From Prevotella sp. (lineage in GTDB: Bacteria; Bacteroidota; Bacteroidia; Bacteroidales; Bacteroidaceae): a stretch of 33,598 bases of DNA. Below are positions 10,792 through 33,598 of this stretch, piece by piece. The stretch spans positions 1-33,598 of the forward strand of contig JAFULM010000052.1 of NCBI GenBank assembly GCA_017483185.1, written 5' to 3'. The position numbers and the translations under genes were made by a program. Within the stretch, counting starts at the first letter, position 1, and each line of letters opens with the position of its first letter. A model generated the notes under the pieces. The model searched no databases, had not been told where the DNA came from, and saw only the letters and a list, made by a program, of their open reading frames with translations.

Positions 10792-11313
10792 TTACAAAAT
10801 CGTGTTCGCAAAATTGCTCAAAGATTTGCTTTTTCATGACCAATAAGGGCCTTATTACGTTCAGAAAGAGGTTGGGAAGCCGCAGGTCTCTCCCCTTTTG
10901 GGGAGCCGGAGGAGGCCATAAGGCCCTTACGGCTGTTCTTTTTTGCAAAACTTCGCGAGTTTTTGATTGCTGTTTTTGACCCGAAAAGCGCTCGTTTTCG
11001 TGCAATAGCGGCCCCGCGACCCTGCAACGGCGTGCTCGTTGGGTTGCAACGGCGGCCCCGTTGCAATGCCGTAAGGGCCCCGTTGCAACCCCGCGGGGCC
11101 CTTACGGGAAGCCCAAGCTCCCCCTTTGGGGGAGTCAGAGGGGGCTGCCCGTTTGTAAGTGGCAGTGTGTCAGCGTTTTGCAAAAACAGCGCTTTTTCTG
11201 CCGAGAAATCGCCATGATTTTGACCTTCGTGAGATTTGAATATTTGGGAGCGAGGCGGAAATATTTTCAAAAGTGCCCCTGAAAAACGCGGTTAAATTCA
11301 GAAAAAAGAGGAC
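10792..11313 (+). repeat. long mosaic repeat, copy 3 (partial, second half only)
   Basis: Starts at TTACAAAATCGTGTTCG, equivalent to about 590 in copy 1, and ends at the same GAGGAC boundary. It lacks the tandem units and diverges from copies 1 and 2 between about 11100 and 11205: after CGCGGGGCC it switches to a segment with CTCCCCCTTTGGGGGAG, then rejoins at GATTTTGACCTTCGTGAG. It lies between the divergent oadA-like gene and the gene at 11622. The remainder of 10546-11621 holds the promoters and two palindromic elements listed separately, with no gene. Confidence 0.85.
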
Positions 11314-11353
11314 AAACGTGCATCGCGGTCGCACTCCGCCTCACCCCGACAAA

Positions 11354-13856: not shown

Positions 13857-15017
13857 TTATATATCCATCCGGCGCACCATGTCCTCCGCCCGCTTCCTCG
13901 CCGGCTTGCCTGTCGGCGTCATCGGAAGGGCCGGGACGGACAGATAGTGCTTTGGGCGCCAGTAGGCGGGCAACACGCGGCGGCATACTTCACGGGCGTT
14001 TTCGATTGCGTCCGACTGCTGGTCCGCATCCTCCGACTCCATCAGCAGCACTACGGCCTCACCGAATTTGGAGTCACGACACCGTGTTATCATATAAGGT
14101 AGCGGCATCGACGGCCTTAATCTGCGCTCCACTTCTTCTATTTGTATTTTCACGCCGCCGCTGCAGATGACGTTGTCGCGACGGCCGAGGATACGAAAAC
14201 GACGGCCGTCAGGCGCGATCTCGGCGCGGTCGTTGGTCTCCAACACTTCGGCGCAGACTGCTGGAGCGTCTATCACGAGGCAGCCTTCGGCGTTAAGACT
14301 GACCTTCACCGTGTCGAACGGCGTGTACCAGTCACTGGCCTCGGGCCCGTTGAGACGGCGCAGAGCTATGTGCGACAGGGTTTCGGTCATGCCGTAAGTG
14401 CTCCACACGCAGTTCGGAAACGTCCGCAACTCCGACGCCAAGGCGTCGTCAATGGCTCCGCCGCCGATTATCAGATGGCGCACACGCATGAGCCGCTCAC
14501 GCTCTTCGGGCACTTGAAGCGTATTGTAAACCTGCATCGGCACCATTGCGGCCAAAGAGATGTCTTTTCGGGGAGGGAGGAGGGTTTGTTTTGGGGGAGA
14601 GTATTTTCGAGGAGGGATGAGGGTGGAGGGTGGAGGGAGAATACCATCAAGAACTTCGTTTGCATTTCTCACTCCACACACCTCACTCCTCCCTCCACGA
14701 AAACACTCTCCCCCAAAAAGCGCTTCCCGGATATCCGACGAAAAGGGATGACCCGTCGGCGTCATGCAGACAAGCCGTAGGCCACATGTCAAGGCCCTCA
14801 CGACCATCATCTTGCCGGCAATATAGTCGAGCGACATGCACAACAGCGCCGTATCGCCGGGCTTCAGACCGAGAAAGGAGCATGTGATACGAGCCGAAGC
14901 CTCCATCCGGTGTTTCTCCACCAGCAGAGACTTCGGCTCGCCCGTCGACCCGCTCGTATGCACCGGCACACAGGGGGCGTCGTTATTCCATTCCTTCAAG
15001 AAGTCTTCGAGGGTCAT
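13857..15017 (-). CDS. menE: o-succinylbenzoate-CoA ligase, with an in-frame palindromic insert
   Basis: 386 residues, the acyl-adenylate enzyme that makes o-succinylbenzoyl-CoA. The ATP-binding TSGSTGEPK (21-29), GRRDNVICSGGVKIQIEEVE and the C-terminal catalytic-lysine segment TPTGKPARK are intact. Residues about 99-152 are unlike the family: Pro/Arg/Gly-rich low-complexity sequence (LPPPSTLIPPRKYSPPK and similar) encoded by an inverted-repeat DNA element. On either side the normal text resumes (HPFSSDIREA, then DISLAAMVPMQV). The frame stays open, so the enzyme may tolerate a surface loop. It is the last gene of the men operon, six bases after menC. Confidence 0.92.
   Translation of the reverse strand: MTLEDFLKEWNNDAPCVPVHTSGSTGEPKSLLVEKHRMEASARITCSFLGLKPGDTALLCMSLDYIAGKMMVVRALTCGLRLVCMTPTGHPFSSDIREALFGGECFRGGRSEVCGVRNANEVLDGILPPPSTLIPPRKYSPPKQTLLPPRKDISLAAMVPMQVYNTLQVPEERERLMRVRHLIIGGGAIDDALASELRTFPNCVWSTYGMTETLSHIALRRLNGPEASDWYTPFDTVKVSLNAEGCLVIDAPAVCAEVLETNDRAEIAPDGRRFRILGRRDNVICSGGVKIQIEEVERRLRPSMPLPYMITRCRDSKFGEAVVLLMESEDADQQSDAIENAREVCRRVLPAYWRPKHYLSVPALPMTPTGKPARKRAEDMVRRMDI
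14565..14718. repeat. inverted-repeat element inserted within menE
   Basis: Arms 14589-14617 and 14690-14718 (29 bp each) pair at 27 positions around a 72-nt loop; the left arm starts TTTTGGGGGAGAG. A direct copy of part of the arm, TTTTCGGGGAGGGAGGAGGG, lies just outside at 14565-14584. The sequence is purine-rich on one strand, unlike the surrounding gene, and is translated in frame as a low-complexity insert. I do not find another copy in the window. Confidence 0.75.
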
Positions 15018-20303: not shown

Positions 20304-20454
20304 TGAAGAATGAAGAGTGAAGACGTGTTGATGAGCATAGCGAGTAATTTGCTGCCGCCATGTATTTGAGGCAGATGTAGGCCGATGGGAATATGAACGG
20401 CGGCAGCAAATTACTCGCTATGCTCATCAACACGTCTTCACTCTTCGTTCTTCA
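20304..20454. repeat. 56-bp inverted repeat between the ROK gene and menI
   Basis: Arms 20304-20359 and 20399-20454 pair at 55 of 56 positions around a 39-nt loop. The outer part is the GAAGAATGAAGAGTGAAG short repeat and the inner part is unique (GTTGATGAGCATAGCGAG, GCGGCAGCAAATTACTCG). It begins four bases after the ROK stop codon and ends 13 bases before menI, so it is probably a strong terminator or processing site separating the two genes. Confidence 0.85.
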
Positions 20455-21494: not shown

Positions 21495-21790
21495 GTCATG
21501 CGCTCTAATATCCCGAAAGTTTGTTTTTTTTAACATGTGCACCTACACAAAGTAACTATTCAGTCCCCCGCTTAGGCCAAGCCTAAGAAATAAAACAGAG
21601 GTGACAGTGCGGAGGTATTACATAGTAGCGACATGTTAAATGTACTTCAAGACCTGGCATAGGAGATGCGATTGATGCGCGAAACAGTCAAACGCATCTC
21701 TTCCGCCAGCAAGGGAAATGGCACTTGCACTTTCTCTTAAATTAATGGCCAAAAGAAAAACGGCACACATCATTTGTTTTCACACCATTT
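21495..21790. other. intergenic stretch without recognised gene
   Basis: About 300 bp between the ROK promoter and the long repeat. It contains two small inverted repeats (CTTAGG/CCTAAG near 21575 and GAGATGCG/CGCATCTC near 21662-21705) and short open frames without recognisable protein sequence. It could be a decayed insertion, but nothing identifies one. Confidence 0.5.
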
Positions 21791-22631
21791 GTCCTCTTTT
21801 TTCTGAATTTAACCGCGTTTTTTAGAGGCACTTTCCAAAAAAACTCCGCCTCGCTCCTAAATTTTCAAATCTCACGAAGGTCAAAATCCGGGTGATTTTG
21901 TGACTTTATATTTACTGTTTTCTTAACATCTTGATATTCAGGCGTTTCAAAACCGCAACAGCCTTTCGGTTTTCCGATAGAGCCTCGGCGAGGTTGCAAT
22001 AGCGGCCCCGCGGGGTCGCAACGGGGCCCTTACGGCACTGCAACGGCAGCCCCGTTGCAACCCAACGGGCACGCCGTTGCAGGGTCGCGGGGCCGCTATT
22101 GCACGAAAACGAACGCTTTTCGGGTCAAAAACGGCAATCAAAAACTCGCGAAGTTTTGCAAAAATTGAGAGCCGTAAGGCCCTTAATGGCCCCCTCCGGC
22201 TCCCCCAAGGGGGAGAGACCTGCGGCTTCCCGACCTTCTTCAGAATGTAATAAGGCCCTTATTGCCCATAAAAATGCAAATCTTTGAGCGTTTTTCCGAA
22301 CGCAATTTTGTAATATAAAAATACCAAAGTAGGGTCGCGACCTGTCGCGACCGCCTCCTTGTCTCGTGGGGAAGATTTTTTCAACGCAAAGACGCAGAGG
22401 CACAAAGATGGCGCCGACGCGCATACAAGAGTACGCAAAGGCATGACGTCCGTCATGCGCTACGCCGGTCATACAACCGTCGCGACCGCCTCCTTGTCTC
22501 GTAGTTTAACATGCCCGGTCAGGTCAGATATATGTGTAATTATATATGAACCACGAGGCGGTCGCGACAGGTCGCGACCCTACGATGGGATGTGCACACA
22601 AGGGCTTAGACATATCAAGCTCCCTCCCTTT

Positions 22632-22648
22632 GGGAGGGTTGGGGTGGG
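22632..22648 (+). other. G-quadruplex-type motif upstream of trmO
   Basis: The plus strand reads GGGAGGGTTGGGGTGGG, four G-runs with loops of 1, 2 and 1 nt, followed by another GGGG at 22653. The equivalent place in copy 4 (minus strand, about 33190-33162) keeps the G-runs with one longer loop. It is 50 bp upstream of the -33 box, on the non-template strand. Confidence 0.5.
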
Positions 22649-22696
22649 TTTTGGGGTGGTTTTTTGAGGGCTGGGTGGGTTTATTTTCCCATCCAT

Positions 22697-22730
22697 TTTG
22701 CTCCGTTCTGCGTTTTTTGACGTACCTTTG
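22697..22730 (+). promoter_or_regulatory. trmO promoter, carried on the edge of the repeat
   Basis: TTTG at 22697-22700 and TACCTTTG at 22723-22730 (spacer 22) form the promoter. The segment from about 22660 to 22731 is nearly identical to the aroB promoter region on the other strand (33089-33150), and the two sequences diverge right after the -7 box. The leader to the ATG at 22802 is about 65 nt. Confidence 0.75.
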
Positions 22731-31721: not shown

Positions 31722-31802
31722 ATAAATTATTCTGAAAACACGCCACTTTGCCCTCGGTTTATTCGCAGCGTTAAGGTCATTTAACCCGCAATCCACAAGG
31801 TT

Positions 31803-31982
31803 CATCCGGTATTTGGAATGACATGTCCTGAAAGTAGGGTCGCGACCCGTCGCGACCGCCTCCGTTCCAACTACATAACCGAATGTATATAAGTCAACAG
31901 GACACAGAACCAATTGACATGGAGGCGGTCGCGACGGGTCGCGACCCTACTTTTAGGGATTGTCACTCCCGATGTCGGACGG
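31803..31982. repeat. 180-bp palindromic element between aroB and lysS
   Basis: Perfect 30-bp inner arms (GTAGGGTCGCGACCCGTCGC... at 31834-31863, complement at 31921-31950) around 57 nt. Outside them the sequences CATCCGGTATTTGGAATGACA (left) and TGTCACTCCCGATGTCGG (right) are also roughly complementary, extending the arms to about 60 bp. The rest of 31673-32000 is the lysS promoter and AT-rich sequence. It begins 18 bases after the aroB stop (reading leftward), so it may terminate aroB. Confidence 0.78.
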
Positions 31983-32000
31983 ACCGATTGCATCCGTCTC

Positions 32001-33088: not shown

Positions 33089-33598
33089 GCAAAGATACAT
33101 CAAAAAAACGAAGAACGGAGCAAAATGGATGGGAAAATAAACCCACCCAACCTGACACCCACCCCCCAAAAAAACCACCCCAACCCTCCCAAAGGGAGGG
33201 AGCTTGATATGTCTAAGCCCTTGTGTGCACATCCCATCGTAGGGTCGCGACCTGTCGCGACCGCCTCGTGGCTCATATATAATTACACACATATCTGACC
33301 TGACCGGGCATGTTAAACCACGAGACAAGGAGGCGGTCGCGACAGTTGGATGACCGGCGTAGCGCATGACGGACGTCATGCCTTTGCGTACTCTTGTATG
33401 CGCGGCGGCGCCATCTTTGTGTCTCTGCGTCTTTGCGTTGAAATATGTGGGGTTATGGTGACAAGGAGGCGGTCGCGACGATGGATGAATGGCGTAGCGC
33501 ATGACGAACGTCATGCCTTTGCGTACTTTCGTATGCGCGGCGGCGCCATCTTTGTGTCTCTGCGTCTTTGTGTTGAAATATGTGGGGTTATGGTGACA
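33089..33598 (+). repeat. long mosaic repeat, copy 4 (first half, runs off the window)
   Basis: From the aroB promoter edge it reads through the CCCTCCCAAAGGGAGGG segment, the palindrome at 33239-33271, the ATATATAATTACACACATA spacer, and tandem units starting with GACAAGG at 33324, 33460 and 33595 (periods 136 and 135). Same orientation as copy 1, inverted relative to copy 2. The second unit carries several differences (GATGGATGAATGGCG). The element is cut by the end of the window. Confidence 0.87.
33090..33124 (-). promoter_or_regulatory. aroB promoter, carried on the edge of the repeat
   Basis: The minus strand has TTTG (33124-33121) and TATCTTTG (33097-33090) with a 23-nt spacer. The upstream sequence is nearly identical to that of trmO. 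The start codon lies about 25 nt after the expected transcription start. Confidence 0.75.

Follow-up and report, generated by a model that had tools for sequence, protein, structure and literature searches.

A multicopy palindromic element in frame within menE of a Prevotella genome, in a loop that repeatedly gains inserts across the genus

The menE gene of a Prevotella sp. genome very probably contains a palindromic element, one member of a non-autonomous multicopy family, which is translated and tolerated within a working enzyme. A first-pass annotation of the window, the whole stretch of 33,598 nucleotides analysed here (contig JAFULM010000052.1), had described a palindromic element in frame within this gene, and both the sequence and the coordinates of that element hold. 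The site in MenE is not special to the genome of the window (G000), being a recurrent insertion site in Prevotella that receives different repeats in different species.

Results

The palindrome within menE

The menE gene, which belongs to the vitamin K pathway and codes for an o-succinylbenzoate--CoA ligase of 386 residues, lies on the minus strand at 13857..15017 and was delimited from its open reading frame, family models and an alignment with 51 relatives. It forms a single open frame that includes the insert, in agreement with the earlier claim that the frame is kept open. The Pfam AMP-binding model matches the product in two stretches, as does the NCBIfam menE model TIGR01923, whose 97.7 bits do not reach the curated cut-off of 330; the name MenE therefore rests on this match together with the aligned relatives and the adjoining men genes, which were recognised by their sequences. 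By alignment the protein is related to the solved structure 4GS5, which we take to be a protein from Dyadobacter. MenE residues 5-93 and 151-374 align to chain residues 29-117 and 122-345 of 4GS5, which leaves residues 94-150 as extra (14568..14738, minus strand, placed by the alignment and an AlphaFold2 model). The added peptide of about 50 residues proposed earlier is thus real but larger, with 57 residues where 4GS5 has 4.

At the DNA level, an inverted-repeat search delimits a left arm of 53 nt (14589..14641) and a right arm of 53 nt (14666..14718) that is 85% complementary to it, and the fold places a loop of 24 nt (14642..14665) between them. The 29-bp arms and 72-nt loop described in the first-pass annotation exist, but they are merely the outer part of this longer hairpin (14589-14718). 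The direct partial copy reported beside the palindrome was also recovered by repeat search, as a partial extra copy of the arm end at 14562-14582, 90% complementary to 14686-14706. The hairpin reaches -77.2 kcal/mol as coding-strand RNA (z -8.44) and a z of -7.63 as plus-strand DNA, and none of 200 dinucleotide shuffles of the RNA or 200 shuffles of the DNA folds as well, which rules out a chance palindrome. An Rfam scan of 14400-14900 gave no known RNA family as the identity of the palindrome, none of its 26 matches at E up to 1 reaching its gathering score.

We modelled MenE with AlphaFold2 from 52 sequences and obtained a mean pLDDT of 85.7, with 252 of 386 residues at 90 or above. The model places the insert between the helix 95-101 and the strand 155-158 at low pLDDT: residues 104-116, 127-140 and 142-145 fall below 50, and blocks over 101-150 lie at 41-54. 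The insert is thus predicted to be largely disordered. An inactive menE accompanied by a second copy would have spoken against the original reading; no second copy was seen in the genome of the window (a draft of 61 contigs, 74.7% complete), and the gene outside the insert is under purifying selection.

The window holds other repeats. A second hairpin at 20304-20454 has 56-nt arms of the GAAGAGTGAAGA type that are 98% complementary and 39 nt apart, and may be a cousin of the menE element. Long direct and inverted repeats (up to 427 nt, 88%) occupy 172-912, 10792-11316, 21788-22718, 31799-31985 and 33103-33598, and include GTCGCGACC palindromes. A GTAGGGTCGCGACC palindrome is also found in a stretch of contig C41 (L363), which holds a Y1_Tnp gene.

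A dispersed family with half of its places inside genes

The insert DNA gives 75 matches at E <= 1, counting both strands, at 26 places in the genome of the window. Two of these, C58:24165 and C11:30280 (L183 and L184), lie on different contigs but are identical, in inverse orientation, over 200 bases or more; they are probably one place, reducing 26 to 25. The shared stretch itself may be a repeat, or one stretch assembled twice. At 13 of the 26 places the copy lies within one open frame that continues on both sides, and the remaining 13 lie between genes, as judged by eye. The search for the arm sequence elsewhere in the genome, proposed with the original observation, therefore bears out the suggestion that intergenic repeats of this genome also enter genes.

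The thirteen hosts, identified with Pfam and NCBIfam models, are menE, holB, dusB, lpdA, lpxB, ispH, an apiosidase-like hydrolase, dxs, mutS2, ispG, a glycosyltransferase-containing protein, a 4-alpha-glucanotransferase and a rhamnogalacturonan lyase. In 9 of the 13, a single family model spans the insert or matches in at least two stretches. In holB and the glycosyltransferase each flank is matched by its own model, while in dusB and mutS2 a model matches one side only and the other was judged from sequence. For the 4-alpha-glucanotransferase and the lyase, the evidence is a weak DNA match (E 0.002 and 0.35) together with a recurring peptide. The genome also encodes a second DXS-like protein (C22:35829-37577), which matches the insert-bearing dxs product in two stretches (28% and 43% identity) and may give dxs a partial backup.

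The family is thus a dispersed multicopy repeat with a long palindromic hairpin, although some copies fold poorly and some places hold half elements, and its in-frame copies in conserved, unrelated genes are free of stops. This agrees with the proposal that the element resembles the palindromic elements of Rickettsia (RPE). In 16 chosen copies we find a common consensus stem of 20 pairs, two of which are changed on both sides; the covariation term for this stem (+0.63) gave no support beyond the sequence itself. The element ends resemble TTTTCGA/TCGAAAA. No RAYT gene bounded by the family was found in this incomplete genome, where the one Y1_Tnp match lies on contig C41, which has no family match, and no transposase could be tied to the copies in this draft.

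The reading frame is kept

In the genome of the window none of the 13 in-gene copies has a stop in the host frame, whereas only 2 of the 26 remaining sense frames are open; nine of the intergenic copies, counted in all six frames, have 19 of 54 open. The in-gene copies of all three genomes studied were recognised by a spanning open frame, a procedure that favours open frames, so these stop counts are not independent. A test that is independent of open frames gave the same picture: at each of the 135 fetched loci the two flanks of MenE share one frame, and 27 of 27 gaps between MenE segments in the less selected MenE search set are divisible by 3. No gene split by a copy was noticed by eye. A peptide of the form SEECGVR...SPSSLHTPPSS recurs, with variations, in unrelated enzymes of this genome, as expected where the arms offer few stop-free frames. 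We infer that the inserts are in fact translated.

Inserts in relatives evolve nearly neutrally

Of seven relatives searched with the dusB copy, G322 gave 5 matches, G152 gave 4 and the rest none, and the family seems to have expanded specifically in this lineage. The genome of the window has its lpxB and ispH inserts in common with G322 and G152, which were separately assembled. On the other hand, dxs and holB of G152 and G322 have no long insert, and about 10 codons resembling an arm remain in its place; the dxs flanks are 92-94% identical in protein to those of the two relatives. These remnants make loss or growth as possible as fresh insertion, and a clean empty site with a target duplication, sought in dxs and holB, was not found, the sister genomes keeping the short remnants. 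The long holB insert is absent in 8 of 10 genomes, the other two (G213 and G084) being matched on one flank only. At the dxs site, where 29 of 30 loci were readable, only the loop of the window's genome, with 68 residues, exceeds 18; anchors were unreadable at 1 of 30 dxs, 3 of 30 lpxB and 13 of 30 ispH loci.

We estimated selection with the simple NG86 method, the shared inserts comprising 41-47 codons. The flanks are conserved, with dN 0.036-0.043 and dS 0.745-0.823 for dxs against G152 and G322, dN 0.044-0.073 and dS 0.47-0.54 for lpxB, dN 0.039-0.043 and dS 1.27 for ispH, and dN 0.14-0.15 and dS 1.6-2.2 for menE. The shared inserts gave dN 0.152 with dS 0.155 and dN 0.242 with dS 0.222 in lpxB, and dN 0.281 with dS 0.323 and dN 0.377 with dS 0.492 in ispH. 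Between conserved flanks, dN/dS in these inserts is therefore about 0.8-1.1. By these estimates the flanks are under purifying selection and the shared lpxB and ispH inserts are near neutral, and since near-neutral ratios appear where relatives share the insert, it seems to be tolerated without having a function. The inserts have a lower dS than their flanks, which the near-neutral picture does not explain, and the remaining insert comparisons, of 17-27 codons (dxs, and ispH of G199), scatter widely. The enzymes presumably retain their activity despite the inserts.

The insertion in menE itself cannot be dated from these relatives, because at this position G152, G322 and G084 have another MenE loop, 53-54 residues long and not palindromic, and because these genomes differ more in menE than in dxs. 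The menE loop of G152 (L140) is the same as that of another locus (L059). One stretch upstream of ispH in G152 (L249) contains an array of TTTAATGACTTTAGGGTC-like repeats and another palindromic repeat, built of GGAGTGAGGAATGA-like units.

A recurrent insertion loop across Prevotella

We measured the MenE loop between the conserved GHPL and AMVPMQ motifs, and its length is mostly 11-75 residues in the fetched loci. The 133 loci reduce to 115 distinct loops, DNA-identical loops being counted once and near-identical ones (L104/L126 and L059/L060/L061) apart; L049 and L123, without loop anchors, were left out, and the length of 0 at L151, included among the 115, is an anchor slip. Seventy-nine of the distinct loops have 19 residues or fewer and 34 have at least 24, a proportion that is inflated because the loci kept were the best matches to a long-loop query. 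By search set, loops of at least 24 residues number 4 of 26 in the less selected set, and 28 of 78 and 7 of 25 in the other two. An insert present throughout the family would have spoken against the original reading, and the 79 short loops show that it is not.

Among the 34 long loops, 10 fold at z <= -4 and 9 have perfect stems of at least 12 bp, whereas both counts are zero in 68 control windows of the same length from the same loci. The palindromes differ in sequence; several have GGGAC-type cores, and these may, judging from the shared core, be cousins. Other long loops contain tandem repeats, duplicated host codons or nothing recognisable. Plain tandem duplication has enlarged the loop at L143, L142 and L079, and at L143 (genome G094) near-tandem copies of the host SGHPLREI codons provide another route to loop growth. 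The exact point of insertion shifts by several codons, and elements also occur in a second loop of MenE (L082 and L129). A named isolate, Prevotella ruminicola KHT3 (L100), carries a weaker palindromic insert in the same loop (z -3.1, 11-bp stem), which has 10 matches in its genome, some of them in open frames other than MenE. At L087, and at L031, which is cut, MenE lies in a 1089-residue open frame as if fused to a further protein.

Further palindrome families and a RAYT-type gene

Two further MenE palindromes were tested, and both are multicopy in their own genomes (G323 and G329) and also lie in frame in other genes. The fetched stretches, 18 in G323 and 20 in G329, cover part of all matches, and the counts of Pfam-bearing frames below do not include the spanning frame at L346. 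The palindrome of L082 has 44 matches in G323, and MenE at this locus holds two copies in two loops, both giving QGDGSFVTS..DVTKEPSPC. The 18 stretches of G323 contain 22 places, of which 8 lie in Pfam-bearing frames: menE twice, an rsmF-like gene, a fucose pyrophosphorylase/kinase, an rsmD-like gene, a GH43 hydrolase, a ketoacyl-synthase-like frame (where the copy lies beyond the matched domains) and a sulfatase. A ninth place lies in a 566-residue frame without a Pfam match.

The palindrome of L110 has at least 88 matches in G329, where 40 of 100 candidates were scored. Its 20 stretches contain 22 places, with 10 in Pfam-bearing frames: thrC, a TonB receptor, mnmG, dnaG, a sodium symporter, dnaE, a Na/H exchanger, peptidase M3, gyrB and an oxidoreductase. 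The copies in dnaG and the exchanger come after the last matched domain. Nine of the 10 hosts use the same frame, giving P-[TN]-P-x-P-S-x-G-[EK], and the symporter uses another. Across G323 and G329 the host frame is open in 19 of 19 in-gene copies, again selected by a spanning frame; other sense frames are open in 6 of 18 cases in G323 and 4 of 20 in G329, which makes openness alone weaker evidence in these two genomes.

The L082 family has a RAYT-type gene bounded by its own repeat. In G323, a frame called RAYT from its PF01797 match lies at 1599-2390 of L338, and palindrome ends lie at 1508, 2400 and 2779, an arrangement known as a REPtron. In G328, close to the end of a contig, full copies follow the matched transposase domain at distances of 377 and 1351 nt. 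Since the same palindrome ends bound the gene, the mover of this family is probably a RAYT transposase.

Discussion

We propose that palindromic elements land between and within genes, and that copies within genes would survive only where the frame is kept, no stop falls in frame and a surface loop is hit. The surviving copies would then be transcribed, and translated into a disordered stretch tolerated by the enzyme. At sites other than MenE the inserts would likewise occupy the protein surface. Each copy would have arisen by insertion rather than by growth from a short seed. Most of the genomes concerned are metagenome drafts. A broader reading, which we offer tentatively and at somewhat less than an even chance, is that several unrelated palindromic lineages of Prevotella have independently become coding-compatible, with a stop-free frame and a hydrophilic peptide, and have spread through essential genes. 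Certain loops, above all that of MenE, would then be recurrent landing places that record the active element of each lineage, and the evolution of Prevotella proteins would be steadily fed by translated selfish DNA.

An insert that is spliced from the RNA as an intron, or skipped by the ribosome through translational bypassing, would never appear in the protein. Known bypassing elements form very stable hairpins, as the coding strand of menE does, but such elements need neither stop-free sequence nor a preserved frame. Here the host frame is open in all 13 and all 19 in-gene copies, which were selected by spanning frames, and, in the independent test, the MenE flanks share a frame at all 135 loci with segment gaps divisible by 3 in 27 of 27. 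Because the frame is kept everywhere tested, we set splicing and bypassing aside as very improbable. The inserts might instead be useful, the peptide or the mRNA hairpin regulating or stabilising the host gene and being kept by selection. Hairpins could affect mRNA stability, and the same frame and peptide (SEECGVR...SPSSLHTPP) do recur across unrelated genes; the few stop-free frames of the repeat, however, account for that recurrence, sister species have short remnants in dxs and holB instead of the insert, and the MenE site holds different sequences in different species. The near-neutral dN/dS of about 0.8-1.1 in the shared lpxB and ispH inserts leads us to set a functional peptide aside too, as improbable though less so than bypassing.

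Tolerance by the loop may also not be the whole reason for the recurrence at MenE, if its DNA attracts palindromic elements as a special docking site. That 34 of 115 distinct loops have at least 24 residues, several with unrelated palindromes, is in line with such attraction, as is the dxs site, where only the copy of the window's genome exceeds 18 residues among 29 readable loci of 30. Best-match sampling inflates the first figure, however, with 4 of 26 in the less selected set, and tandem duplication (L143, L142, L079) lengthens the same loop, the insertion point shifts by several codons and a second loop is hit (L082, L129). All of these features fit tolerance, and we regard a docking site as unlikely, if the least unlikely of the alternatives weighed here. 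Lastly, the insert could reflect an assembly artefact, contamination of a metagenome-assembled genome or a decaying menE pseudogene, given a 61-contig draft at 74.7% completeness, the difficulty of assembling palindromes and the presence of one element-bearing stretch on two contigs. This reading is hardly credible when the frame is kept at thirteen separate positions, separately assembled relatives share the lpxB and ispH inserts, the MenE flanks are under purifying selection, and the isolate KHT3 has a palindromic insert in the same MenE loop with 10 matches in its genome.

In the portions available of the relevant papers, protein-coding palindromic repeats are best known from intracellular Rickettsiales (PMC2229807, PMC10969869, PMC2996958), and REPs are found inside genes of some free-living bacteria (PMC3733652). 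In Prevotella we find three families of different sequence with many in-frame copies, two of the genomes coming from rumen or abomasum samples according to their record titles. Their presence in genes such as gyrB, dnaE and dnaG suggests that the process is independent of intracellular life. The MenE loop is a natural experiment, with one loop, many species and different inserts, and with it culturable strains could be used to test directly whether such inserts serve proteins as neutral raw material. Annotators should also be aware that peptides derived from repeats may be a genuine part of conserved proteins in Bacteroidales. Working proteins appear to carry selfish DNA that is translated with them.

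Palindromic elements of Rickettsia were reportedly described by Ogata in 2000 and 2002, and intragenic ERIC/MITE sequences of enterobacteria are said to have been described by Delihas in 2007. A sequence relationship between the Rickettsia families and the G-rich and C-rich arms of the window's family seems unlikely. In the largely open-access literature searched, as judged by titles and abstract openings, we recognised no report of in-frame palindromic elements in Bacteroidales.

As far as the accessible parts of the sources describe them, RPEs and their counterparts in Wolbachia and Methanocaldococcus are hairpin-forming palindromes of 105-150 bp with several families per genome, located between genes and in frame in conserved genes, and the one enzyme tested kept its activity (PMC2229807, PMC10969869, PMC2996958). 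By that description the Prevotella palindromes are alike, with several families, intergenic and in-frame copies in conserved genes, and hairpins. They differ in belonging to another phylum, whose hosts here are not obligate intracellular, and in that a single enzyme loop receives different families in many species. Intragenic REPs and REPtrons, in the part of a 2013 study at hand, are short palindromes in open frames of conserved genes, often of replication or repair, with RAYT genes bounded by the repeat in REPtrons and, in two Xanthomonas species, different REPs near the same position of recB; Bacteroidetes are named in one of its passages, as carrying CGTC repeats (PMC3733652). The window's family is longer and no RAYT link was found for it, whereas the G323 family has the RAYT arrangement.

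The enterobacterial ERIC/MITE sequences, in the excerpts available, are miniature inverted-repeat elements from which conserved proteins gain in-frame peptides (PMC2229807, PMC10969869), as they do from the Prevotella elements; they differ in sequence and phylum, and those excerpts describe no recurrent site. PARCEL elements, according to the section consulted, are palindromic coding repeats spread among genes, as in Prevotella, but mainly in tandem arrays, in contrast to the single inserts in housekeeping enzymes seen here (PMC2996958). Porphyromonas MITEs are treated as non-coding in the available part of their description (PMC5771137). The kind of element is thus already established by RPEs, the Wolbachia elements and intragenic REPs; what is new is the recurrent MenE site and the presence of several unrelated families in one genus.
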